Virus record (IMG/VR): IMGVR_UViG_3300042691_047289
Location: 1-20,788 of that record
Source: a virus
DNA: 20,788 nucleotides
Strand: one strand, 5' to 3'
Below, piece by piece: positions 2,966 through 20,788 of this stretch. A program made the translations under genes and the position numbers. Position 1 is the stretch's first letter, and every line of letters begins with the position of its first letter. A model generated the notes under the pieces. It was not told the origin of the DNA, did not search any database, and worked only from the letters and a program-made list of their open reading frames with translations.

Positions 2966-3271
2966 TTATTTTTTTGGAAGCAGATTATCGGGTATTATCC
3001 CACTAAGAAATTTACCAGCAAACTTACCGTTCTCGAAAATTCCATTTTCCCAGGTACCATAAAAGTTACCGGATTTCCAAATACCATAATGCCATATACC
3101 TGCATAAAAGTTACCTGAATGCCAAATAATCGTGTTGTTCTTGATTTCGATTATAGCATCTTCGATCTCAGAATCAATTAACCACCAAAACCCATGTTGA
3201 TTTAGAACAGATTCAATTTTTTCTCTGTTAGAGATTGAGGACTCGTTGATTATAAGCTTATTGAATCTCAT
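2966..3271 (-). CDS. Aromatic pentad-repeat protein, possible beta-helix
   Basis: The 101-residue protein has two parts. Residues 1-48 form an N-terminal segment starting MRFNKLIINESS, where IINE matches the (I/L)xE rule for prohead protease cleavage. Residues 49-91 are nine near-regular units of the type x(W/F)xxG, for example IWHSG, NFYAG, IWHYG, IWKSG and TWENG. Aromatics fall at about 50, 55, 60, 65, 70, 74, 79, 84 and 88. A five-residue period suggests a quadrilateral beta-helix like pentapeptide-repeat proteins, though the central residue there is usually Leu or Phe. Function is unknown. The start follows an AATATATA box (3282-3289) by ten bases. Confidence 0.7.
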   Translation of the reverse strand: MRFNKLIINESSISNREKIESVLNQHGFWWLIDSEIEDAIIEIKNNTIIWHSGNFYAGIWHYGIWKSGNFYGTWENGIFENGKFAGKFLSGIIPDNLLPKK

Positions 3272-3353: not shown

Positions 3354-3836
3354 TTATCTTTTTGCTAAGAAATAGAGATCTTTTTCAGTAATACTAAATC
3401 CTTCTACCATGTTAATAAAATTAGTCAAAGTTTTAATAGTCTCATCTGAAAGTGCAAAAAGTGTATTAGACGGATCCCACTTAGAACCGTAAGATGTATA
3501 TTGTATGATATCTATATCATTAGGTGGTCGACAAGAAAACTCACAAGTAATTATATTACCATAGGCAATATCAAAGTCTAATTTAATTGAACCGTTTTCT
3601 AGGTAGTAAATATCCATTGACATCTCATCTGGATGACCAAATAATGATTTATCGGCTGTGTAAATTATCTGTGTCATATTGGCATTTTCAATGATGTTAC
3701 CTATATTGAAAGTCCTATCAAGCATTTGTCCTTCTACTTGTTTGAAGACTTCAATTTTTTGTGGTAAATATTTTTCAAACCCAGGTAACAGCAATCCCGG
3801 ACTTGAAAACTGCTCAAATGTTTTAATGGTTCTCAT
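3354..3836 (-). CDS. Hypothetical protein with a capsid-targeting-like N-terminus
   Basis: I do not recognise this 160-residue protein. The first residues, MRTIKTFEQFSS, have the pattern M-K/R-x-x-x-x-F-x-x-F. That pattern is shared with the genes at 18010 and 18160 and recalls the T4 internal-protein leader MKTYQEF. A clear (I/L)xE cleavage site does not follow immediately. The remainder is predicted alpha/beta with no signal peptide or membrane helix. It diverges from the clamp-loader gene. The ATG at 3836 is four bases from an AATATATA box, which supports this start. Packaging into the head is an inference from the leader only. Confidence 0.7.
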   Translation of the reverse strand: MRTIKTFEQFSSPGLLLPGFEKYLPQKIEVFKQVEGQMLDRTFNIGNIIENANMTQIIYTADKSLFGHPDEMSMDIYYLENGSIKLDFDIAYGNIITCEFSCRPPNDIDIIQYTSYGSKWDPSNTLFALSDETIKTLTNFINMVEGFSITEKDLYFLAKR

Positions 3837-8650: not shown

Positions 8651-9235
8651 ATGACAAGAACAGATATAATAAACAGAATTGCCGCAAAAATAGGAGCTGA
8701 AAGCTATCTAGAAATTGGAGTACGTGATGGTGAAAACTTCAAAATGATAAATTGTGATTATAAATTAGGTGTAGACCCAGATCCTAATTCAAAAGCATTA
8801 ATACTACAAACCTCTGATTTCTTTTTTGCGTTCAATAAAGCGAAATTTGATTTGGTATTAGTAGATGGAATGCATACCGAAAAACAAGTAGCTAGAGATA
8901 TACAAAATTCAATTAAGATCTTAAATGATGGTGGTTGGATAATTTGTCATGATATGAACCCCACTGAAGAATTACAACAAACTGAACAATATTACGGTGG
9001 CGCTTGGTCAGGAACATGCTGGAGAGCTTTTGTTGAACTAAGAAGAACTAGGTCAGATCTATATATGGCAGTAGTAGATACTGATTATGGCTGTGGAATT
9101 ATAACAAGAGGAAAGCAAGAACTTTTAAAAGTAGATGAACCATTAACATATCAACTATTGGAAAGAAGAAGAAGAGAACTTCTAAATTTAATCAGTGTTC
9201 AGGAGTTCGAAAAGTTGATGTCCGAATATATTTAA
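8651..9235 (+). CDS. SAM-dependent methyltransferase (class I, Methyltransf_24-like)
   Basis: The 194-residue protein has a Rossmann-type methyltransferase core. The SAM-binding glycine motif YLEIGVRDGENF is at residues 19-30, and an acidic strand end, KLGVDPDP, follows. DLVLVDGMHTEKQVARDI at 67-84, NDGGWIICHDM at 92-102 and the HD at 100-101 are typical of the Methyltransf_24 group. The substrate is not evident; small molecules or sugars are common in that group. It lies between portal and protease genes, where T4 has the small genes 67 and 68. The last 44 bases are read antisense as the C-terminus of the neighbouring homing endonuclease. Confidence 0.8.
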   Translation: MTRTDIINRIAAKIGAESYLEIGVRDGENFKMINCDYKLGVDPDPNSKALILQTSDFFFAFNKAKFDLVLVDGMHTEKQVARDIQNSIKILNDGGWIICHDMNPTEELQQTEQYYGGAWSGTCWRAFVELRRTRSDLYMAVVDTDYGCGIITRGKQELLKVDEPLTYQLLERRRRELLNLISVQEFEKLMSEYI

Positions 9236-10916
9236 TTTTACCAGCATCCCAAATTTTCGGATGCCGATTTTCTTTTCCTCTGAAGTTGAACTTGTGTCTT
9301 CTTATGCCTTCAACAAGGTAACTATAATCTGGCTTTAAATCAGAAACTTTCTCAAATCCAAGTGACTCGTAAATAGAGCCAGTGGAATAAGCATTATCAC
9401 TGAAAGTCACAACATCACATTTAAATTTTTTTTGGAATTCCGAAAAGATTTTTGAGGCACCTCCAACTATAATTGTATTAATCTTACTACAATATCTATT
9501 CAATTCCAAATAATTATTTCTTTTTATGAAAGTCATCACACTTACTAACTCTGATCCTTCAAATAACCCAAACGCATAAGAAAATTGGCATTTTCCTTGG
9601 AGATGATTATCTTGTAGGAAATCGTAAATTATAGGCTTACTTTCTATATTTTTTACTAAACACTTCCTAGCCATTATTTTGCGTTTTGTAAGACCAATCT
9701 TATTCTCAATCATTGACTTTACTATTTCGTTTTTAAATAACCAGTCGTCTTCCCAAATATGAAATAGATTGATACCGTTACTCTGACATATTACAGACTT
9801 TTCTTTGTGATAGTCTCTGTGTTTAAATAAATCAGAATGCCAATAAACTCCGTTGAACTCGAAAGCGGTTTTTATTTCTGGAAGGTAAATATCTACTTCT
9901 TTACCATCTAGCCTGTGATTTCTAATTATATCACCAGTGTAGATGTCTCTAATATAGTTATAAAGGTTGATCTCTAATCCAGATTGATGCTTATCAATAG
10001 CATTACAATTGGTGCAAATAACTGTATTTGTTTCTCTTCTCTTATAAAAGAGCGACCATGTTATAAGGAACTCACGTTGGCATGAATTACAAAAGATTAG
10101 GAAATTTCTATTTTCAGAATCAATTTGCAAAAGGTTTTGAATGTTTTCGAAAGTTTTCTTGTTTAAAGTTTCTGTTACACCTTTTTTGATTTTTTTTGCT
10201 ATTGATTTATTTTTACTTGGATTTTCGAAACCGTAAATTTCAAAGTTTGTCTTTTTTATTTTCTCCTTAATATCTTGTGAAATTATTGAAAACTTATTTC
10301 CATATTTTATTTCGTTAGTTGATGATATTTTCTCAACGACCTCAGGGTCATTAAAAGGAGTTCTATATCCTGTTTTCAGAAGGTAGTTTTGTTCTTTCTT
10401 ATCTTTTATAATTTGTAGTTTAGATATATTTTCGATTGACCACTTATCTAACAAAGTAGCAATTGACTTTTGCTTTATAGTAGAACTTTGCATAGGCCAA
10501 TCAACTCCATACTTACTATTATTTGTCTCTATTTTTTTCATCTTCACATCATCTAATTTCGAGACATTATCTACTCCCCATTTTTCTATGTTAGTTTGTT
10601 TTATTTTTTGCTTTATATCATCTCTTTGAAAAACATTCTCAACACCATACTTATCTAAGTTGCTCTTCTTAAGCTTACACTTTCTACAAAGGTAAATTCC
10701 ATTCTTGTATCCATAACTATTATAGTCCTTATAGGTGATTTCCTTCTGAGAAGAACACTCATCACATTCTACCTTGATGAGAATCCTACTATTAGGAAGA
10801 ACCTGAAACAGATCACACTCAATAGTCAAACCACACTTGAGATTGTCGAACCATTTCGAATAATGCTTATGATTAGAGGCATTTATAGTAATGCTATATT
10901 TTTCGTTTACAATCAT
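9192..10916 (-). CDS. Homing endonuclease, zinc ribbon + repeats + Vsr-like nuclease
   Basis: This 574-residue free-standing homing endonuclease is predicted to cut a phage locus so that the gene is copied by repair. A zinc ribbon (C51, C54, C77, C80) comes first. Residues 88-250 are about seven helical units of the type KYGVxNxxxxxxIKxKIxxT, typical of NUMOD-like DNA-binding repeats. A second zinc ribbon (C276, C279, C301, C304) follows. The Vsr/EDxHD-like nuclease core has E315, D342 in VDIYLP, E353 in FEFNGVYWHS and HIWEDDW at 386-392. The C-terminal third resembles a GNAT-like fold (SELVSVMTF, YESLGFEKV). The gene lies opposite to the virion genes, between methyltransferase and protease, and overlaps the methyltransferase end by 44 bases. 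Confidence 0.85.
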   Translation of the reverse strand: MIVNEKYSITINASNHKHYSKWFDNLKCGLTIECDLFQVLPNSRILIKVECDECSSQKEITYKDYNSYGYKNGIYLCRKCKLKKSNLDKYGVENVFQRDDIKQKIKQTNIEKWGVDNVSKLDDVKMKKIETNNSKYGVDWPMQSSTIKQKSIATLLDKWSIENISKLQIIKDKKEQNYLLKTGYRTPFNDPEVVEKISSTNEIKYGNKFSIISQDIKEKIKKTNFEIYGFENPSKNKSIAKKIKKGVTETLNKKTFENIQNLLQIDSENRNFLIFCNSCQREFLITWSLFYKRRETNTVICTNCNAIDKHQSGLEINLYNYIRDIYTGDIIRNHRLDGKEVDIYLPEIKTAFEFNGVYWHSDLFKHRDYHKEKSVICQSNGINLFHIWEDDWLFKNEIVKSMIENKIGLTKRKIMARKCLVKNIESKPIIYDFLQDNHLQGKCQFSYAFGLFEGSELVSVMTFIKRNNYLELNRYCSKINTIIVGGASKIFSEFQKKFKCDVVTFSDNAYSTGSIYESLGFEKVSDLKPDYSYLVEGIRRHKFNFRGKENRHPKIWDAGKIKYIRTSTFRTPEH

Positions 10917-11058: not shown

Positions 11059-13185
11059 ATGAAGCCCGTATTAATTGTCGAAAATAACAGCAAACCGTTG
11101 ACAATGAACGAATCAGTTCAAGATGATTCGAAAGGATATCTTTTAGGTGGTGTGTTTACCGAGTTCGGTATAAAAAACAGAAACGAAAGAATCTACACCG
11201 CTGAAAAGTTTATCCCTTGTCTCGAAGAGCTTAACGAAAGAATAAATACGATGGGTGTAGTTTATGGTGAATTCGATCACCCGGACGTCTTCGATACCTC
11301 TTTATCTAGAGCATCACACTTGATTCAAAAGGCATATTATGTCAAAGAATCAAACAGAGTTGATGGACAGATTAGACTATTGAATACTTACTGGGGTAAA
11401 GAAGCTAAAGCACTTGTAAATGACGGTTGTCCGTTGTTTGTTTCTTCGAGAGCAGCAGGTGTAACAGAATCTGATGGTACAGTTACTTTGAAAAAGTTAT
11501 TTACTTATGACATAGTAGCTGATCCTGGTTTTGCTTCTGCAAAGATGAGTTCCATAAATGAATCCTTCGGATTTAGCAATAACACAAACTTTAGAATTTA
11601 TGACATTTCTAAAGAATCAAAAATTAACGATTTATTCCAAATGAACAAGAATGAATTTGTTACCAAAAACCAGTTAACTGACTATTCGAAGTATATCATC
11701 AATGAGATTGCATCTACTAAGAAAGAAGTTAAAAGCGCTATGAAGCTTGGTAACTTAAACCCCAAAAAACTGGAACAACTTCTCGAGTACTATGATGAGT
11801 TGAACAGCACTAACAGCAAGATCGTTAAGTATCTTGATTACCTAGCAGAAAAAGTACAAGTAGTTGTTAATGAGAATAAGTCTCTTAAAGATACTACTAC
11901 AAAGCTCATTAATCACAATGATTATCTAGCTGAAAATTTAGAGAAAGCAATCAACTATTCTGAGTATGTAGCTGAGAATCTCGATAAGAATATTTCTTAT
12001 GCAGAATATCTTGCTGAAAATCTCGATAAGAATATTTCTTACTCTGAGTATCTAGCTGAGAACCTCGATAAGAATATTTCTTACTCTGAGTATCTAGCTG
12101 AGAATCTCGATAAGAATATTGCTTATTCCGAGTATATCGCTGAGAACCTCGATAAGAATATAGCTTATTCTGAGTATATCGCTGAGAACCTCGATAAGAA
12201 TATAGCTTATTCTGAGTATATCGCTGAAAATCTTGACAAGAACATTTCTTATGCAGAATATCTAGCTGAGAATCTTGACAATACTATTGCTTACTCTGAG
12301 TATTTAGCAGAACACCTTGAGGGTAATATTGCTTACTCTGAGTATATCGCAGAACACTTAGATGATAACATTGCCTACTCTGAGTATATCGCAGAAAATC
12401 TCGACAAGACTGTAAGTTATACTGGTCGTATTGTTGAGCAATTAAATGGTGGTAAAATGTTCGAAGGAAAAGACCAAACACTTCCTACTCTCGAAGAGGT
12501 TGGATTTGAAATGGTTTCTGACTACGAAGAAAAAGAAACTACCGAAGAAGAAGAAATGAATCCTCATGAAGAGGAAGAATATAGTGACGATGCTTTTCAA
12601 ATGTTACCCTCCACTGAGGAAGTAGCAGATGAAGAAAACGAAACTAGTGATAATTATGATGGTCATTCAGACACAGAATTATCACAAAGCATAGATAAGT
12701 TAATCGAAGAAGCCAAGAAACGTAAGGTTTTAGAGAAAAACGATCTACACTTCTTGACTTTCTTAACCAAGTCTGAAGTTGATAGCTACTATGATCTAAC
12801 AAATGAAGAACAAGAACAAGTTAAGCTTTACCTAAACGAAAAAAGCTATTTCAGCAGATCACAAGTTTTAAGCCACATCAACGAAGCACTTGCAGTTAAA
12901 GAAGAAAGTTTGGAAACAAGACTTATCAGATTGATGCCTGAAAACATTAAGCCTATCTGGAAAACTCTGAATGAAAGCACAAAGAAATCGTTCCTATCAC
13001 AAGCTATTCTTTATCCTGCATTGGATACAGAAGAGAAGATTGAACATTTCTGGTTGACTAGACCATTTAAAGTAAATGAAGCTAGCAACAAAAAATTGGT
13101 TTCTCATGAAACTTTGATCCTCGAAGACAAATTGTCTGATGAAGATGTTAAGTCAATCCTTGAGAAATTCAAAAACATTAAATAA
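11059..13185 (+). CDS. 21: Prohead protease fused to scaffold core protein (T4 gp21 + gp22-like)
   Basis: This 708-residue protein joins two roles. Residues 25-160 are a gp21-type serine protease that matures the prohead. They include GVFTEFGIKNRNERIY, GEFDHPD with the likely catalytic H74, FVSSRAAG with the likely catalytic Ser at 129 or 130, and TYDIVADP at 149-156. Residues 200-280 are helical. Residues 286-467 are about thirteen units of 14 residues (consensus YSEYLAENLDKNIS), a probable extended coiled-coil rod. A very acidic segment (about 480-540) and a helical C-terminal domain (about 545-708) follow. (I/L/M/V)-N-E sites occur at E18, E168, E216, E609, E639 and E674 and could be self-cleavage sites. 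It lies 21 bases before the capsid gene. T4 encodes protease and scaffold separately. Confidence 0.88.
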   Translation: MKPVLIVENNSKPLTMNESVQDDSKGYLLGGVFTEFGIKNRNERIYTAEKFIPCLEELNERINTMGVVYGEFDHPDVFDTSLSRASHLIQKAYYVKESNRVDGQIRLLNTYWGKEAKALVNDGCPLFVSSRAAGVTESDGTVTLKKLFTYDIVADPGFASAKMSSINESFGFSNNTNFRIYDISKESKINDLFQMNKNEFVTKNQLTDYSKYIINEIASTKKEVKSAMKLGNLNPKKLEQLLEYYDELNSTNSKIVKYLDYLAEKVQVVVNENKSLKDTTTKLINHNDYLAENLEKAINYSEYVAENLDKNISYAEYLAENLDKNISYSEYLAENLDKNISYSEYLAENLDKNIAYSEYIAENLDKNIAYSEYIAENLDKNIAYSEYIAENLDKNISYAEYLAENLDNTIAYSEYLAEHLEGNIAYSEYIAEHLDDNIAYSEYIAENLDKTVSYTGRIVEQLNGGKMFEGKDQTLPTLEEVGFEMVSDYEEKETTEEEEMNPHEEEEYSDDAFQMLPSTEEVADEENETSDNYDGHSDTELSQSIDKLIEEAKKRKVLEKNDLHFLTFLTKSEVDSYYDLTNEEQEQVKLYLNEKSYFSRSQVLSHINEALAVKEESLETRLIRLMPENIKPIWKTLNESTKKSFLSQAILYPALDTEEKIEHFWLTRPFKVNEASNKKLVSHETLILEDKLSDEDVKSILEKFKNIK
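11914..12459 (+). repeat. Tandem 42-bp repeats in the scaffold part
   Basis: There are twelve in-frame 42-base units from 11914 to 12417, and a degenerate thirteenth to 12459. Neighbouring central units are nearly identical at the DNA level (for example tctgagtatatcgctgagaa recurs). Outer units differ more, as expected from internal duplication. Each unit encodes 14 residues, two heptads, with Tyr, Leu and Ile in a regular pattern. Copy number could change by slippage or recombination and would lengthen or shorten the scaffold rod. Confidence 0.92.
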
Positions 13186-13206: not shown

Positions 13207-14895
13207 ATGTCACACATTAGAATAGACACACAGAAAGCTTACAAAAAGTGGGCTCCTGTTCTTGAAAACATGGGTGTTCAAGGCGAAGAAAGACTCGGAT
13301 GGATGTCTGAATACGCTGAGTATCACTCAATTAACGAAAACGCATACGTAAATGCTGGTATCGCTGGTATGGGTGGAGTTCTTGCTCCTCAACCTTCTAC
13401 TCTTGCTGGTGCTCTACAGGGCACTAACTGGAATGGCGGAAGCAACGGTGGATCACTTGGTTCAGGTGATCTTGGTCAGAACCTTCTTCCTGTTGCAATG
13501 AAAATTGCTGCTCAGACTATTGGTCTTGATCTCGTTGCTGTAAAACCAACCCCTGGTCCAAAGATTGATCTTCTTTATATTGATTTCCAATATGATGATG
13601 TTGATACTAACGAAGCTAGACCTCAAGTATTTAAAGTAAACGCAGTTGAAAACACCTCTGTCATACTTGGTCTTACTGCTAACCTAGTTACCAGTGGTAT
13701 CACTGAAACCGTTGGTGGACTTCAAGGTGGTAGAGTATTCTACAACATCTCGACAGGTGCTACTGTATCTGATCCTCAGAGTGGTTCTAAGACTAACATC
13801 GTTGAGTTCCTAGGTTTCTCTCGCGTTGATGGATATCCTATGTTCAGAGCTTACAGACAAGCAAATGCCGTTGGTCAATACAGCGGTAATGTTGCTCCTT
13901 ATGTTTGGGATGCTGCTAAGAACACATTTAATGCAACCGCTTCTATGACTTCTCAGATTGTAAAAATTGCAGGCGTAACTTGCAGCTTTACAACTGGGTA
14001 TGGTGTTGAACTCGTTTCTGCACTTGAAGATCATATTCCTGGTTTCGTTACTAACTGGACTGGAACTTCTACTGGAGTTGGTAACTATCCTATGAGCCGT
14101 GCTAACGATGATCTATCGTATGCTGGTGTAATCGGACCTAAGGTATCTTCTAAGAGTGTTGCTGTTGGCACTATCGAGGTTTCTTCTGCTCTAAGAAGAA
14201 GTGAAATCGAAGATATCAAAGCTAACACTGGTATGGACATCGTTCAGAAAATGGAATCCATTCTCGTAAACGAATTGTCTCAGACTATCTCTAAGCAGAT
14301 CGTTGGTAAAGTTTTCGAACTCGCTTCTCTAAACAGAGATTCTGCACCTCGTGGTGGTGTTGGAACTATCACAAACCAAACCGTATTCGACCTCGATACA
14401 GCTTATGTATCTGGTGTTGGCGGTGAAACAACTCACGCTGTTCAAAGAAAGCTCATCACTAAGATGGTACATGCTTCTAACTACATCGCAACTGAAGGCC
14501 GTGTCGGACCTGCTCAGTTCGCTGTAACAAACGGAGGTCTTGCTGCTGCTTTCATGGATATCGCTGGTTATACAATCAACCCCGTTAAATCTAAAGTTAA
14601 TGGTGCTGGTCAACTCTATCCTGTAGGTCAAATCGGTGATATCACCATTTATGTTGATCCTTACATGAAGTATAATGACAACAGAATCGCTTTAGGTAGA
14701 AAGAACAACCCTGACCAACCTGGTTTGATTTTCGTGCCCTACTTGATGGCTCAATCAATCAGCTTGATTTCAGAAGCAACTTTCGCTCCTCGCATGCTTC
14801 TACGTTCTAGATATGCAGTAGCTGAAGTGGGTTGGTTCCCTCAAAAGCAGTATATGTTGATCAACGTTAAGGATGCTGCAACGTTACTTAACTAA
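13207..14895 (+). CDS. 23: Major capsid protein (T4 gp23-like)
   Basis: The 562-residue precursor of the HK97-fold shell protein is close in length to T4 gp23 (521). The N-terminal helical segment (IDTQKAYKKWAPVLENMG) is the usual delta-domain start. SINE at 41-44 gives a likely prohead-protease cut after E44, with NAYVNAGIAGM as the mature N-terminus. LLPVAMKIAAQTIGLDLVAVKP matches the gp23 NLIAFDICGVQP region, and LRSRYAVAEVGWFP near the C-terminus matches the end of the capsid family. Codons are richer in G and C than in the neighbours, as expected for very high expression. A strong hairpin terminator follows the stop. There is no promoter box of its own, so it is probably co-transcribed with the protease-scaffold gene. 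Confidence 0.94.
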   Translation: MSHIRIDTQKAYKKWAPVLENMGVQGEERLGWMSEYAEYHSINENAYVNAGIAGMGGVLAPQPSTLAGALQGTNWNGGSNGGSLGSGDLGQNLLPVAMKIAAQTIGLDLVAVKPTPGPKIDLLYIDFQYDDVDTNEARPQVFKVNAVENTSVILGLTANLVTSGITETVGGLQGGRVFYNISTGATVSDPQSGSKTNIVEFLGFSRVDGYPMFRAYRQANAVGQYSGNVAPYVWDAAKNTFNATASMTSQIVKIAGVTCSFTTGYGVELVSALEDHIPGFVTNWTGTSTGVGNYPMSRANDDLSYAGVIGPKVSSKSVAVGTIEVSSALRRSEIEDIKANTGMDIVQKMESILVNELSQTISKQIVGKVFELASLNRDSAPRGGVGTITNQTVFDLDTAYVSGVGGETTHAVQRKLITKMVHASNYIATEGRVGPAQFAVTNGGLAAAFMDIAGYTINPVKSKVNGAGQLYPVGQIGDITIYVDPYMKYNDNRIALGRKNNPDQPGLIFVPYLMAQSISLISEATFAPRMLLRSRYAVAEVGWFPQKQYMLINVKDAATLLN

Positions 14896-14963: not shown

Positions 14964-15827
14964 ATGAACTACTCGAAAAAGGGCATAAAGTTGACCAATC
15001 AAGAATATGACCTTAGACTTTTAGAATATAAACTCAAGAGATTGGAAGATTACATAGATAGTAAAACATCTATAAAACATGTATGCATAAACTGCAACAA
15101 AATATTCAGGGTAAAACCAAAAGAATTAAACAGAATTAATTGTGATTGTTTTTTGAAAGGAGCCGAATACAAGAAAAACATTTATAATAAAAATATTGTT
15201 CCAATAGAAAATTATCGAAATATAAAATCTAAAATTCTACACAAGTGTCTCAACTGTCAATTAGAATTTTACAGCTCACCTAAAACTATACTAAAAAGTA
15301 AAATTGGATGTACTTCTTGTTCAGGAAAAAAATTCACCGAAGAAAAATATAAGTCTTTATTACCTTCTAATATTGAGCTTATAGGTGAGTATATAGATAC
15401 AGCAAAAGCAACGCTACACAAATGTTTAGAATGTGATAATAAGTGGACTACAAAGCCTAATTACATATTACATATGGGATGTGGTTGTCCTAACTGCGCA
15501 TCATCAAAAGGTGAGAAATTAATTCAAAAGCTACTTGAAGACTTATCAATTTATTATTTAAAAGAAAAAAATGTTGAAATATATGGATTTAAATATAGAT
15601 TTGACTTCTTCATAGATAATTTAAATTTGTTTATAGAATTCGATGGAATACAACACTTCGAATCAAAGGAATTCTTCGGTGGAGATGAGTATTTTAAAAA
15701 GATTCAAGAAAGCGATAAAATTAAAAATAATTGGTGTGTAAATAATAGATATAAATTAATTAGAATTACGTATAAAGAATTGAAAACATTGACAAAAGAA
15801 CAACTCTCTGAATTAATATATAATTGA
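14964..15827 (+). CDS. Homing endonuclease with three zinc ribbons and a PD-(D/E)xK-like domain
   Basis: The 287-residue protein carries three zinc ribbons of the type HxCxxC ... CxxC. Their cysteines are C41/C44 with C60/C62, C95/C98 with C116/C119, and C154/C157 with C175/C178. Each has a basic (K/S)P motif between the pairs, probably for DNA contact. The C-terminal nuclease domain has YRFDFFI with D214, LFIEFDGIQHFE with E225, D227, Q230 and H231, then FFGGDEYF, a Gln/Asp helix and KLIRITY. This arrangement is common in phage free-standing endonucleases of the Vsr/PD-(D/E)xK type. It lies directly after the capsid terminator, probably as an inserted mobile gene, and 16 bases before a second such gene on the same strand. 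Confidence 0.82.
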   Translation: MNYSKKGIKLTNQEYDLRLLEYKLKRLEDYIDSKTSIKHVCINCNKIFRVKPKELNRINCDCFLKGAEYKKNIYNKNIVPIENYRNIKSKILHKCLNCQLEFYSSPKTILKSKIGCTSCSGKKFTEEKYKSLLPSNIELIGEYIDTAKATLHKCLECDNKWTTKPNYILHMGCGCPNCASSKGEKLIQKLLEDLSIYYLKEKNVEIYGFKYRFDFFIDNLNLFIEFDGIQHFESKEFFGGDEYFKKIQESDKIKNNWCVNNRYKLIRITYKELKTLTKEQLSELIYN

Positions 15828-15843
15828 AAAGGACATTTGCTCT

Positions 15844-17337
15844 ATGTATACGGATAAGTTTAAAAAGATTAATGATATAGTTCAAGAACATTCGATTAGG
15901 TTACGGGAAAGTTACTTCAAAAATAATCATACCGAATTATATAATTTAATTAATAACTACTGTGCTGGTATTTCAGACTTGAAATTTGTTCAAAAAATTT
16001 GGCATTGGGTAAATGACAGAGAGAATTACTTTGTCTGTGAATGTGGGGAAAGAACTTCTTTTAATAAGAATTGGTTAGATGGATACCGAAAATATTGTTC
16101 TGCGAAATGTTCACAATCACAGGAGAAGACCAAAGAAAAAAGAAGAAAGACAACCTTAGAAAAATGGGGCACTGATAATGTTGCCAAATCTGAAGAGATC
16201 AAGAAAAAACAAGAGCAAACTAATTTAAAGAAATGGGGTTCTAAATCAACAACACAGAATACTGAGGTTCAAGAAAAGATAAGAAAATCAGTGGTTGAAA
16301 AATGGGGGAAAGAATGGTATTTTCAGACTGAAGACTTCAAACTGAAAGCAAAGAAGTATTATTTAGAAAAATATGGAGTTGAGCATCAATTAGAAGTAGA
16401 AGAGATTAAAGAACGTATAAAGCAAACTTGTCTAAAGAAGTATGGTGTTGAAACTTATTTGAATACTCAACATTCGAGAGATTCCATTAAGAAGTATAAC
16501 AAGTCAGGCTATGAGAAAGAAATTGTCGAATGGTTAAATGGTTTCGTTGATATAATAGAAACAAGCAGTAAAGTTATTAGCCCATTGAATATAGACATTT
16601 TTTTACCACAGTTCAATCTAGCAATTGAGTTTAATGGATTATATTGGCATTCAGAATTATTTAAAGATAAGAACTATCATTTAAAAAAGACTAAACTGTG
16701 TGAGGAGAAAGGAATAAAGCTAATTCATGTTTGGGAAGATGATTGGCTCAATAGAAAAGAGATCATCAAGTCTATTATACTAAATAGAATTGGTAAAATT
16801 GATAAAAGAATATGGGCAAGGAAGTGTCTTATCAAAGAATGTAACAATGAAGTTACTGCAAATTTTTTAAACAATAATCACATACAAGGTTATTCTAAAT
16901 TCAATAAGTCAGTAGGACTTTATTATGGAGAGGACCTAGTTAGTCTAATGACATTTGGTTGGCGTGCTATAAATGGCAAAAGAGAATATGAGCTTCTCAG
17001 GTTTTGTAATTTAATAAATCACAATATAGTTGGAGCTGCTTCGAGACTATTCAAGCATTTTGTAAAGGTATATAAGCCAGAAAATATAAAATCATATGCA
17101 GATAGATCAATGTTCGATGGAAATTTATATAAAACATTAGGGTTTAGTCTAGATAAGGTATCAGATCCCAATTATTGGTGGGTGGTTAAAGGTGTGAGAA
17201 AACATAGATTCACTTATAACAAAAAGAAATTAGTTGCAAAAGGACATGATCCCCTAAAAACAGAAGTTGAGATAATGCATGAGTTAGGAAACTACAGAAT
17301 TTGGGGGTGCGGACAAGACAGATGGCTCTATAATTAA
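15844..17337 (+). CDS. Homing endonuclease, repeat + Vsr-like nuclease + GNAT-like domain
   Basis: The 497-residue protein has the same architecture as the endonuclease at 9192-10916 but different sequence. A zinc ribbon (C65, C67, C85, C89) comes first. Residues 103-208 carry helical units such as EKWGTDNVAKSEEIKKK and KKYGVETYL. The nuclease core has E224, D251 in NIDIFLP, E262 in IEFNGLYWHS and HVWEDDW at 295-301. Residues 325-480 resemble a GNAT-like fold (EDLVSLMTF, LYKTLGFSL), ending in YRIWGCGQDRWLY. GAAAAGGA about ten bases upstream is one of the few Shine-Dalgarno-like sequences here. There is no A/T box, so the gene is probably co-transcribed with the preceding endonuclease. The region downstream is convergent with the gene at 17405. 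Confidence 0.85.
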   Translation: MYTDKFKKINDIVQEHSIRLRESYFKNNHTELYNLINNYCAGISDLKFVQKIWHWVNDRENYFVCECGERTSFNKNWLDGYRKYCSAKCSQSQEKTKEKRRKTTLEKWGTDNVAKSEEIKKKQEQTNLKKWGSKSTTQNTEVQEKIRKSVVEKWGKEWYFQTEDFKLKAKKYYLEKYGVEHQLEVEEIKERIKQTCLKKYGVETYLNTQHSRDSIKKYNKSGYEKEIVEWLNGFVDIIETSSKVISPLNIDIFLPQFNLAIEFNGLYWHSELFKDKNYHLKKTKLCEEKGIKLIHVWEDDWLNRKEIIKSIILNRIGKIDKRIWARKCLIKECNNEVTANFLNNNHIQGYSKFNKSVGLYYGEDLVSLMTFGWRAINGKREYELLRFCNLINHNIVGAASRLFKHFVKVYKPENIKSYADRSMFDGNLYKTLGFSLDKVSDPNYWWVVKGVRKHRFTYNKKKLVAKGHDPLKTEVEIMHELGNYRIWGCGQDRWLYN

Positions 17338-17404: not shown

Positions 17405-18010
17405 TTAAAAAAATTTCGATTTTAGTTTAAGCCAAATAAATTTCAAGATTAGTCTTGGCATCGATATTTTTTGGACTTTTACTAATTCAGTAGATAAACC
17501 AAAAATATAATCCTTCAACGACTTTGGTTCTATCTTGAATTTTTTGATGTCTTCAACTGCCATGAATTCGTTGACTACTTCTATTTTAGATGGATCAACT
17601 AAGTCCATAATTATGTATTCACTGATTTCGAAGTCAGTATCCTCTATATCATCTATATCTATCATCGAATCTTTCCATTTTTTCATGTCCTTCAACATAA
17701 GACTGACATTCCTAACTTTAACTTTATCTGGCTTCGCCTTAATCTTGAGAAGAGCACATTTTTGCTTTTTTGTAGCAGGAAAGAATAATAACGCCTGTAA
17801 TAAAGAACCGAATAAATTATTTGGAACAAGCCAATCATCAAAATTCTCTTCTGCTATTACATAAGTGCCTCCGTCCTTTCCAGGTAATAATCCCAGATTT
17901 TTTATAGACTCAAGATGTTCATAATTAATAATTTTATAAAAAACGGTTTCTCTGCTAAAAGCTTCGTTTAATTCAGTGCTGAATTTATCAAATAACTTTA
18001 TATGTTTCAT
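17405..18010 (-). CDS. Possible ADP-ribosyltransferase-like protein with a head-targeting leader
   Basis: The 201-residue protein begins MKHIKLFDKFSTELNEAF. The leader pattern and LNE fit a T4-type capsid-targeting peptide cut after E16. The next part, VFYKIINYEHLESIKNLGLL followed by PGKDGGTYVIAEE, has the order seen in many ADP-ribosyltransferase-fold proteins: an N-terminal (H/Y)-containing strand, a helix ending in G-L-L-P, then a strand with Tyr. SEYIIMDLVDPSKIEVV at 130-146, with E131, could supply the conserved Glu. T4 Alt is an ADP-ribosyltransferase carried in the head and injected, so the combination would make sense. I see the pattern only and cannot confirm the fold. The C-terminus is basic and hydrophobic (LILKFIWLKLKSKFF) and could touch membranes or nucleic acid. 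Confidence 0.6.
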   Translation of the reverse strand: MKHIKLFDKFSTELNEAFSRETVFYKIINYEHLESIKNLGLLPGKDGGTYVIAEENFDDWLVPNNLFGSLLQALLFFPATKKQKCALLKIKAKPDKVKVRNVSLMLKDMKKWKDSMIDIDDIEDTDFEISEYIIMDLVDPSKIEVVNEFMAVEDIKKFKIEPKSLKDYIFGLSTELVKVQKISMPRLILKFIWLKLKSKFF

Positions 18011-18017
18011 GAAAATC

Positions 18018-18037
18018 TTTTTTATATATATAAAAAA
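18018..18037. promoter_or_regulatory. Perfect 20-bp A/T palindrome upstream of the ART-like gene
   Basis: TTTTTTATATATATAAAAAA reads the same on both strands. It starts eight bases before the minus-strand ATG at 18010 and overlaps the stop of the small gene at 18022. It may act as a promoter box for 18010, a weak hairpin ending the small gene, or both. Confidence 0.35.
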
Positions 18038-18114
18038 TCAAAAGCTTTCTGTTTCAGTATTTTTAAATCAATTTGATTTCCTTCATTGAATAATTCGTAA
18101 CTAGTAATTATCAT
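18022..18114 (-). CDS. Small gene encoding a 30-residue leader-like peptide
   Basis: An ATG at 18114 opens a 30-codon frame starting MIITSYELFNEGNQ and ending KQKAFDFLYI, with a TAA at 18022-18024. The start is exactly four bases (gttt) from an AATATATA box at 18119-18126, the same spacing as the clear genes at 18160 and 20151. The first eleven residues resemble the head-targeting leaders of neighbouring genes, with a possible cut after FNE. It could be a short packaged peptide, a decayed copy of a leader-bearing gene, or chance. The box and spacing make me favour an expressed gene. It ends 11 bases before the start of the ART-like gene. Confidence 0.45.
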   Translation of the reverse strand: MIITSYELFNEGNQIDLKILKQKAFDFLYI

Positions 18115-18118
18115 AAAC

Positions 18119-18126
18119 TATATATT
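18119..18126 (-). promoter_or_regulatory. Candidate late promoter box of the 30-residue gene
   Basis: On the minus strand TAATATATA is followed by gttt and the ATG at 18114. It lies back to back with the plus-strand box at 18148-18155, forming a divergent promoter pair. Confidence 0.45.
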
Positions 18127-18147
18127 AATTTGTTAATTTTAAATTTT

Positions 18148-18155
18148 AATATATA
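18148..18155 (+). promoter_or_regulatory. Candidate late promoter box before the 656-aa gene
   Basis: TTTTAATATATA is followed by ggtt and the ATG at 18160, a four-base gap. The box and the first codons are almost repeated before the paralogue at 20151. Confidence 0.55.
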
Positions 18156-18159
18156 GGTT

Positions 18160-20130
18160 ATGATAAAGAACTATAGTGAATTCATTTTAGAGAATGTTCA
18201 AAAGTCTAAAGCTATATATAAGCAAAAGTTAGAAGACTATGAAAAGTTGAAAAAAAAGCTTGAGTTAGCAAATCGCCTTGGTTGGATGGGTAAATTTACT
18301 GAGTTACTCTTTAGTAATGTTCCATATAATGAACTTGAAGCACTTTTCAATAGTTTAGAAGACTTAAAAAAGAAGAATATACCAATAAATATTGACTCAT
18401 ATAATAATTACGAATCATTATTAGATGATATAGATAAAAAATTAAATTTTCATAGATTCAAATTAGTAATTAACAAGTTCCCAAAAAAGCAAAAAGATTT
18501 AGTATTGAATTGGCTATCTAACCCTGAAAAACTATCTCAAAATTCTTTATCATTTATAAAATTAGGCGAAGCTGAAAATAATGAAATTTTCTTCAGAGCC
18601 ATTTCTTCTTATGAAACTTATTCAGATTTGTATCAATCACTTCAAAGATTTTTAAAATCAAGAGGAAAGCAATATACAAGAGAGTATGTAAAGTCATTAT
18701 TAGACGATGATTTAATCTTGAGATACGAAGATGATAGATTCATCATTTTAGAAACTAAAACACATCCTGCAATTTGTAAAGTAGGAGATGATACCTCATG
18801 GTGTATTGTAAGAAGTGCTAGTCAATTTGCTTCTTATACCAAAGATGGTAGAAAACAATTCGTACTAATAGATTATACAAAGGAAAATTTTAACAAACTC
18901 TATAAAATAGGTTTTACTTTATCAGTTGATAATAAAATACTATATGCTCATGATATAATGGATGGATCAGTGATACCTTATATCAAAGATTTATTGACTA
19001 GTAACAAAATTGAAGTTCAGAGTTTGAATATAAAAGAAATTATTAATATTGATTTACTGAAGAGCTTACCTTATTCTAAAGCTGTGATATATTTAGAAAA
19101 GTCACCTTTAATAGAAAAAAATCAATTAAGAGAAGTTATTTCAGAATTCTCAAAAAAAGTCAGTGTGTCAGGCTTTACCACCGCTATGAAAATAATTAAA
19201 AATTTATTTGAAAAATGTCTTGACGTAACATTTATTAGCCAAAAAGATTTTGAAAAATATAAAGATTGGTTCAACCAATCTCCAGTGGCGAATTGGCAGA
19301 GAGTGAAAAAGGACCTTATAGAAAGTGGATTTGTAATTACACCAAAACCAATACATGATATTATGGAATATCCCTTGGAAGTACATAAGGTATACCATAA
19401 AAACTGGAAATTCAAAATTGATGATGACGAAGCATCAAAACGAGGAGCTATTAATATCATACTTTCCAAGCCTAATAAAGAATGGTGTGAAATACTGTTA
19501 CACTACTTGGATAAATTAGAAAATCTGACTAATTATCAAAATTTACTGAAATTATACTGTAAAATGACTCTAGGCCAAGAAATATCTAAATCTATTGCAA
19601 AAGAAATTATAGATACGAACTTGCCAAAAAATACACAGAGATATTTAAAACTGATGAATATTTTCAGGATAAAGTACAATATAACACAGAGTATGTTATC
19701 TTTAACTTATATTATAGATTGGAACTTAGTGGATAAAACACCAGTGAAGTTAAGAATTACGAGAAGTGACGAACTATTATATTCAATAAAAAAAGATATT
19801 TTAGATAAAAATGGAATAGACTATTATTATGAAATAAAATCCGAAGAGTTTTTATCATTTTTAAATAATATAACGTTAAAAGCAAAAAAACAAATAGAGT
19901 TTACCAAAAACTACACTGCTTGTAGAAGCAACGAAAGTTACTGGATAGAAAATTTTTTGGTCAACGTAGAGAAAAATAAAAAAGGCGAATTAAAATTCAA
20001 GGATGAAGTGAAATTTCCACTACAAATCCAATACCAGATAGGTGAAAAATCTATACCTATGACAATTGTCGAATCGGAAAGTAATCAGTCAAGCGTCAAA
20101 GAAAACCAAAGTTACTATAAAATATTTTAA
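18160..20130 (+). CDS. Large protein with head-targeting-like leader and WC-motif domain, paralogue 1
   Basis: I do not know the function of this 656-residue protein. Residues 1-11, MIKNYSEFILE, closely match the T4 internal-protein leader MKTYQEFIAE, so cleavage after E11 and packing in the head are likely inferences. Residues 12-75 are a charged coiled-coil-like helix (IYKQKLEDYEKLKKKLELANR) followed by GWMGKFTELLFS. Residues 172-270 form a domain with YTREYVKSLL, THPAICKVGDDTSWCIVRS (W214, C215), QFVLID and LYAHDIMDG (H264, D265). A G-x-x-T-x-W-C motif followed by F/Y and a xVLID strand recurs in other large-phage proteins, to my recollection, without a known function. The rest is helical. 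It is followed 20 bases later by a related gene. Confidence 0.8.
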   Translation: MIKNYSEFILENVQKSKAIYKQKLEDYEKLKKKLELANRLGWMGKFTELLFSNVPYNELEALFNSLEDLKKKNIPINIDSYNNYESLLDDIDKKLNFHRFKLVINKFPKKQKDLVLNWLSNPEKLSQNSLSFIKLGEAENNEIFFRAISSYETYSDLYQSLQRFLKSRGKQYTREYVKSLLDDDLILRYEDDRFIILETKTHPAICKVGDDTSWCIVRSASQFASYTKDGRKQFVLIDYTKENFNKLYKIGFTLSVDNKILYAHDIMDGSVIPYIKDLLTSNKIEVQSLNIKEIINIDLLKSLPYSKAVIYLEKSPLIEKNQLREVISEFSKKVSVSGFTTAMKIIKNLFEKCLDVTFISQKDFEKYKDWFNQSPVANWQRVKKDLIESGFVITPKPIHDIMEYPLEVHKVYHKNWKFKIDDDEASKRGAINIILSKPNKEWCEILLHYLDKLENLTNYQNLLKLYCKMTLGQEISKSIAKEIIDTNLPKNTQRYLKLMNIFRIKYNITQSMLSLTYIIDWNLVDKTPVKLRITRSDELLYSIKKDILDKNGIDYYYEIKSEEFLSFLNNITLKAKKQIEFTKNYTACRSNESYWIENFLVNVEKNKKGELKFKDEVKFPLQIQYQIGEKSIPMTIVESESNQSSVKENQSYYKIF

Positions 20131-20138
20131 GGAAATTT

Positions 20139-20146
20139 AATATATA
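20139..20146 (+). promoter_or_regulatory. Candidate late promoter box before the second paralogue
   Basis: TTTAATATATA is followed by aatc and the ATG at 20151 (four-base gap). It lies in the 20 bases between the two paralogues, so each copy appears to have its own promoter. Confidence 0.55.
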
Positions 20147-20150
20147 AATC

Positions 20151-20788
20151 ATGATAAAGAAATACGATGAGTTCTTGCTTGAAAATATTCAAAAGGCAAA
20201 ATCAATATATAAGCAAAAGTTAGAAGATTTTGAGTCTCTTAGAAACAAATTAGAAAAAGCAAACAGGTCTGGCTGGATGGGTAAGTTCGCAGAGCTTTTA
20301 TTTAGTGGTATTCCAAAAAAAGAACTTGATGATTTATTCACTTCTTTAGAAGATTTAAAGAAAAAAAACATTAATATTAATATAGATTCTTTCGATAATT
20401 ACGAGAAACTACTTGATGAAATAATAAAGATAGAGAATCAATACAAATTAAAATCTTTGCTAAATAGATTTCCAAAAAAACAGAAAGATTTAGTCAATGA
20501 TTCGATATCAATCACAAGCCCGAAACAATTCAAAGGAAATTTATTAGGTAGGTTGACTAAATTAAGTGATATGGATAATAAATCATTATTTATCAACAAG
20601 ATATCTTCATTTAATGATATTCAATCTTTATATAACGCTTTAGTAATATTTACGGATTCCTCTGGTATGGTATACACTAGAGAATATGTGAAATCGATAC
20701 TTTATGGGGATCTCAAACTGGTATATGAAGATTCGAGATTCATTATAGTAGAAGCCAAAACACATGCAGCAATAGTAAAGATTGGTAA
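20151..20788 (+). CDS. Paralogue 2 of the leader-bearing WC-motif protein, partial
   Basis: The frame is open from ATG at 20151 to the right edge (212 codons). It starts MIKKYDEFLLENIQKAK and aligns along its whole visible length with the protein at 18160. Shared text includes IYKQKLED, GWMGKF, ELLFS, SLEDLKKKNI, FPKKQKDLV, YTREYVKS and the domain start (T/K)TH-A-I-x-K-(V/I)G. The window ends just before the expected WC motif, so whether its Cys is kept cannot be seen. The leader LLE at 9-11 keeps the protease-site pattern. DNA similarity is moderate, so the duplication is old. A third copy beyond the edge is possible. Confidence 0.85.
   Translation, partial: MIKKYDEFLLENIQKAKSIYKQKLEDFESLRNKLEKANRSGWMGKFAELLFSGIPKKELDDLFTSLEDLKKKNININIDSFDNYEKLLDEIIKIENQYKLKSLLNRFPKKQKDLVNDSISITSPKQFKGNLLGRLTKLSDMDNKSLFINKISSFNDIQSLYNALVIFTDSSGMVYTREYVKSILYGDLKLVYEDSRFIIVEAKTHAAIVKIG

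Follow-up and report, generated by a model that had tools for sequence, protein, structure and literature searches.

The IMG/VR virus record IMGVR_UViG_3300042691_047289, analyzed here as a complete record of 20,788 bases (hereafter the window), is by its sequence a 20.8-kb piece of a T4-type huge phage near the 634-735 kb 'Mahaphage' genomes. A preliminary description had noticed that several of its genes encode proteins with similar short N-terminal leaders, and had proposed an exchangeable tag, carried by unrelated proteins of a virion-delivered effector module near the capsid genes and sending them into the phage head. Our main finding is that such leaders, in two classes, begin 302 genes of four related huge genomes, and that they are probably propeptides of the T4 capsid-targeting type, carried by a large virion cargo. 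This reading draws on the tag itself, its spread, its match to the scaffold and to the capsid cleavage site, its exchange between orthologues, the fold of a protease and an upstream element. The central idea holds on a larger scale than was proposed, while its local evidence is weaker and its module claim wrong.

The best matches of the window's capsid protein lie in four uncultured huge phages: LR745206.1 (635 kb, 70% identity), LR756502.1 (642 kb, 67%), LR756504.1 (636 kb, 53%) and LR756501.1 (735 kb, 53%). Bacteroidetes are predicted as hosts of the largest members of the Mahaphage clade (Al-Shayeb et al. 2020; PMC7162821). The sequences scanned were LR745206 (W01), LR756502 (W02), the first 520 kb of LR756501 (W03), LR756504 (W04) and 400 kb of the 462-kb LR756500 (W08), with T4, phiKZ, PTm1, P-SSM2 and MaF61 for comparison; open reading frames (ORFs) were called by a simple longest-ATG method.

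The key to the leaders is a protein of 708 amino acids (11059..13185, + strand) in which a gp21-like prohead protease is fused to the scaffold. Its protease part matches PF03420 (E 7e-5; 22.8 bits, under the 27-bit cut-off) and phrog_207 (1e-29), and the best PDB match of its AlphaFold2 (AF2) model, found with Foldseek at the protease domain, is T4 gp21 (5jbl, E 8e-7, probability 1.0). With H74 and S129/S130 invariant in the alignment, it has the profile, the fold and the conserved His and Ser of Peptidase S77/gp21. The middle of the protein (11914..12396, +) is made of about 12 tandem 14-residue scaffold repeats, for example NIAYSEYIAE|NLDK (the bar marks the predicted cut), which carry the same motif as the leaders, are conserved across a 31-sequence alignment and are helical in the AF2 model at modest confidence (mean predicted local distance difference test, pLDDT, of 53). 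The leader NYSEFILE|N is nearly identical to the scaffold AYSEYIAE|N. The major capsid protein, of gp23 type (13207..14895, +; PF07068, 2.7e-27), has a predicted propeptide of residues 1-44 (13207-13338, +) ending in ...EYAEYHSINE|NAY, a site conserved in relatives. Stray copies of protease-domain pieces and scaffold repeats also lie off the head cluster, at 11440-11778 and 620141-620263 in LR756501 and at 460435-460686 in LR745206.

From these repeats of the phage's own scaffold we defined a class I motif, [FY]xx[FY][ILVM]xE, and scanned for it in the first 20 residues of each protein. This class-based motif was adopted after a position-weight matrix of the exact repeat, which favours Ala ahead of Glu and Tyr at each of the two aromatic positions, proved too restrictive and gave no N-terminal excess. 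The motif matched 23 of 905 proteins in W01, 26 of 944 in W02, 40 of 668 in W03, 23 of 903 in W04 and 20 of 527 in W08, with the Glu mostly at residues 10-13. The resulting N-terminal rate of 2.5-6.0% compares with 0.24-0.45% for internal 20-mers, a 6-20-fold enrichment (Fisher p for the five genomes: 2.9e-10, 2.7e-14, 6.8e-27, 7.7e-9 and 5.5e-12). Shuffled N-termini of W01-W04 gave 2.1-2.7 matches (about 0.27%), so that the pattern is commoner at real than at shuffled N-termini, a comparison on which the preliminary description had staked its proposal. The same scan found only three matches in T4 (ipII, ipIII and gp61.1) and three in P-SSM2, two of them convincing (MKSFKQFLEE, MKSFSQFLTE); PTm1, phiKZ and MaF61 were at chance level. 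Gene 61.1 of T4 (18966-19130) encodes a hypothetical protein whose start, MKTFKEFIKE|D, resembles a capsid-targeting sequence (CTS), and it adjoins adfA (61.2). One match in LR756504, a DegT aminotransferase, is probably fortuitous and was not counted as a leader protein; its MIPIYKPFLNEK resembles the usual start of the DegT family.

A second class of leaders came to light because [FYILVM]NE at residues 7-25 is enriched in genes with the element ATATATA within 30 nt upstream of the ATG (20% vs 8%, p 1e-16), with no enrichment further in. These class II starts have the general forms MKHLKxFNE|S and MKYLKxYKIFE|S; examples are MKHLKKFNE|S, MKYLKTYKIFE|S and MKHIKKFDSYSINE|E. They head 71 of 905 proteins in W01, 91 of 944 in W02 and 34 of 903 in W04, that is, up to 10% of genes, as against 0.04-0.1% at internal Met (about 80-150-fold in these three genomes), and none was found in T4, PTm1 or phiKZ. 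The first class II Glu is followed by Ser in 38% of cases vs 9% in controls. The 24-nt starts are distinct in 70 of 71 and 90 of 91 cases, with ordinary codon use and synonymous variation; the varied synonymous codons and the Ser after Glu therefore point to selection on the peptide. LR745206 and LR756502 together hold about 80 members of one large group of paralogues, the DDGF family: small proteins, often encoded in tandem, that combine a class II leader with an 'ILxELxDDGF' domain (for example L123:10332-15620).

The upstream element is present ahead of 49% of class I genes and 46% of those of class II, compared with 14% of the remaining genes. It is found on 59% of the orthologues of T4 late genes and 16% of those of early genes, late and early being assigned from the T4 map. 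Its frequency on leader genes is near that on T4-late orthologues, and by this sign leader genes may be late-expressed. Leaders resemble each other more within than between genomes, to an extent that exceeds all 500 shuffles; the MKYIKEYEEFLLE-like starts of LR756500 are an example.

That the tag is exchangeable is backed by several lines of evidence. Of the 302 leader proteins of W01-W04, 45 belong to the DDGF family and the other 257 fall into 202 families, so that the same leader stands on unrelated proteins. Classes are swapped on orthologous bodies: W01_480 and W02_549 have bodies 84% identical and the leaders MIIKKYIKFINE|E and MKYLRTYE|G, respectively; methyltransferase orthologues begin with MIIKRYNEFVFE, MKYILSKKIFE or MIKKYIQFINE; and two further cases were seen. 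A leader stands on the RNA ligase of W01 and of W02, and none on its W03 and W04 orthologues. Most telling is a set of small proteins in which a leader runs directly into a copy of the capsid protein's N-arm, with a basic tail behind it (LR756502.1 80294-80539, L127:294-539; LR745206.1 93266-93520, L095:13266-13520; L354; L326). They read MKHLKNYKSFNE|DATANASTAGMGGVSPAQPG and MKKFKEYIKE|DATATMGNTGGMGAVVAAQPS, where the capsid protein has EFHSINE|NAYANASNVSGMGAVVAAQPA, and the end of the leader coincides exactly with the predicted end of the capsid propeptide. Such in-register copies suggest that leaders, too, would be cut after the Glu. Together with the scaffold-repeat and capsid-site match and the gp21-type protease, the 202 families and the leader swaps bear out an exchangeable N-terminal tag on unrelated bodies. 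A module of effectors beside the capsid genes is, by contrast, not supported: leader genes are scattered genome-wide (in two genomes, each 50 kb has between 3 and 27), and other genes lie downstream of the capsid gene in the window's three nearest relatives.

In the window, all the N-termini quoted in the preliminary description are present where it placed them. The clearest belongs to an ORF for a protein of 656 amino acids (18160..20130, +), with the leader MIKNYSEFILE (18160-18192), which fits the scaffold-derived motif, a predicted cut at E11|N12 and a GDDTSWCI motif in its body. Six members of its family share 21-59% identity with it; among them E|N never changes, and the preceding stretch varies in length. 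Its tandem paralogue (20151..20788, +), truncated by the window end after 212 amino acids, has the leader MIKKYDEFLLE (20151-20183) with the same predicted cut, E11|N12. The two are 59% identical across their shared part, so as paralogues they count once and alone say nothing on tag exchange; the statement that the bodies are unrelated fails for this pair. Late-promoter-like TTAATATATA elements lie upstream of both genes (18146..18155 and 20137..20146, +). On the opposite strand, a protein of 201 amino acids (17405..18010, -) has the class II leader MKHIKLFDKFSTELNE (18010-17963), with a predicted cut at E16|A17, comparable to MKHIKKFDSYSINE|E in LR756502. Searches of viral contigs and PDB for relatives of proteins 17405 and 18160 returned none, PDB suggested no function for either, and Pfam and PHROGs assigned a function to none of the five candidate leader proteins of the window. 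The single-sequence fold of protein 17405 (pLDDT 39.5) was unusable; an ADP-ribosyltransferase fold is conjectured for it.

The remaining candidates are weaker. MIITSYELFNE|G is present as an N-terminus, but it heads a mere 30-codon ORF (18022..18114, -) of doubtful coding status, possibly a gene remnant, with a TTAATATATA element upstream (18119..18128, -). The short divergent intergenic stretch between it and gene 18160 (18115-18159) holds two inverted TTAATATATA elements. Of the two looser members proposed, a protein of 160 amino acids (3354..3836, -) has a probable class II-type leader, MRTIKTFEQF: its nearest relative (L001:96-599) bears a similar leader, MNYIKKFESFKQF (MNYIKKFESFK), and the same ...EKYLP... 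body start. The other, the ORF at 2966..3271 (-) with MRFNKLIINE|S, fits neither class and is too loose to count. As strict-motif matches in the window come from one family only (about 0.35% expected per N-terminus), the local evidence is one strict family, gene 17405 and the looser gene 3354. Homing-endonuclease-like ORFs (9192-10916, 14964-15827 and 15844-17337) crowd the head-gene cluster.

By Pfam, the leader proteins include the following: T4-type RNA ligase, DHH, a 2H/Acb1-like protein with exonuclease, SMODS-associated NUDIX, PPK2, methyltransferases, GH108, FMN reductase, HNH and radical SAM. When IMG/VR was searched with exact DNA patterns of the two leaders, 61 and 57 matches were returned, and 105 of these lie at what are probably true starts. 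Products with a length of 60 amino acids or more number 109 and make up 52 families. An ADP-ribosyltransferase (PF18760, 1.2e-12) with MKHLKKFNE was found in an IMG/VR contig.

On the model of T4, docking, cleavage, packaging and injection would proceed as follows. Tagged proteins would be made late in infection alongside the head proteins. The leader, a short helix of the form I-K-K-[YF]-x-x-F-[IL]-x-E, would imitate one turn of the scaffold repeat and dock its protein onto the protease-scaffold core, so that the protein becomes enclosed in the prohead. The scaffold-fused gp21-like protease would then cut after the Glu, as expected for the scaffold repeats and the capsid SINE, and the freed bodies would remain in the head until they pass into the host along with the DNA. 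Since dozens to about 100 unrelated proteins carry the tag, the particles are suggested to bring a large protein cargo into the host. Several points weigh against this reading. ORF starts rest on a simple calling method, chance is expected to account for about 10-15% of class I matches, the 735-kb genome (LR756501) is almost without class II, and the class II cut sites (FE|S, FNE|S) deviate from the (I/L)xE rule of T4. Some tagged proteins are large (1,284 amino acids), and about 100 different packaged proteins per virion would exceed any characterized head known to us. For none of these phages are virion proteomics or data on cleavage known to us.

Could the leaders serve another end? That only class I targets the capsid, class II being either some other tag or an N-terminal segment passed down within a large family of paralogues, is somewhat unlikely. 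It would account for the 45 DDGF proteins with class II leaders and for the 735-kb genome, which has class I and hardly any class II; the majority of class II proteins, however, lie outside the DDGF family, the two classes interchange on orthologous bodies, both precede capsid N-arm copies and carry the upstream element, and position P1' is rich in Ser and Asn in both. We consider it unlikely that the leader is a tag for docking or localization to something else than the capsid, for instance to a replication compartment or the membrane. Many tagged enzymes (RNA ligase, PPK2, methyltransferases, FMN reductase) could indeed work inside the producing cell, and the class II cut site is unlike that of T4, but a tag of this kind would leave aside the match to scaffold repeats and capsid cut site as well as the late-type element common on leader genes, and conserved replication proteins are without it: among 86 T4-core orthologues only two have a leader, both RNA ligases.

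Two further explanations fare worse. Whole-gene common descent, true for the pair in the window and for the DDGF family, or chance, which the DegT protein illustrates, is very unlikely to account for 257 proteins in 202 unrelated families and for enrichments of 6-20-fold (class I) and about 80-150-fold (class II) over internal controls. Selection at the mRNA level for translation initiation in AT-rich genes, with no protein signal, can be regarded as extremely improbable: it would suit the A/T-rich starts and the ATATA element that lies ahead of many ATGs, its end 6-8 nt away from them, but synonymous variation follows the usage of each genome, with nearly all 24-nt starts distinct, the Glu and the following small residue are conserved, and the remaining genes of these AT-rich genomes seldom have the motif.

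The wider proposal is that virions of the largest known phages are protein delivery vehicles. One exchangeable, scaffold-mimicking tag would send dozens to about 100 different proteins, likely counter-defence and RNA-repair enzymes among them, into each head and from there into a Bacteroidetes host, with roughly 10% of the genome coding for cargo; we give this proposal an even chance. Most huge-phage genes are without a known role, and a readable tag would reveal from sequence the proteins that act in the first minutes, before phage gene expression. It would name counter-defence candidates (Acb1-like, SMODS-associated NUDIX, RNA ligase, ADP-ribosyltransferase), give one possible reason for the large heads of huge phages, and supply a natural means of loading proteins into phage heads. 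We found no account of leader tags in huge phages in the literature searched, subscription papers being mostly outside its reach.

Among known systems, large phages such as phiKZ, SPN3US and 201phi2-1 are similar in that many of their head proteins are cut after Glu by a gp21-related protease, but their propeptides are mostly long and their cut site is (S/A)-x-E (PMC5694885, PMC9026906), and phiKZ is at chance in the class I scan; the leaders described here, mostly of 8-20 residues in an aromatic/aliphatic context, do not resemble phiKZ-type ejection proteins. Tenacibaculum phage PTm1 shares the protease-scaffold fusion adjoining a gp23-type capsid gene, but is without YSEYIAE repeats. The closest likeness is to the T-even phages, where it is established that injected proteins with no other relationship have a leader in common, and where each of Ip1-Ip3 inhibits GmrSD nucleases (PMC12373910). 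As in the CTS of T4 IPI-IPIII and Alt, a short N-terminal leader has two aromatic residues, an aliphatic one and Glu at the same spacing. According to mutagenesis, targeting by the T4 leader depends on residues 4 and 7, and its processing on residues 8 and 10 (PMC9026906); these are the positions that the class I motif constrains. As in T4, unrelated bodies have only the leader in common (PMC12373910), a gp21-type protease and a scaffold core are encoded, and one leader-bearing relative is, like Alt, an ADP-ribosyltransferase. Unlike T4, the huge phages have their scaffold fused to the protease and built of leader-like repeats, and two leader classes on many enzymatic bodies, whose packaging we infer; and, unlike both T4 and P-SSM2 with their three motif matches each, they have 26-114 tagged genes per genome.

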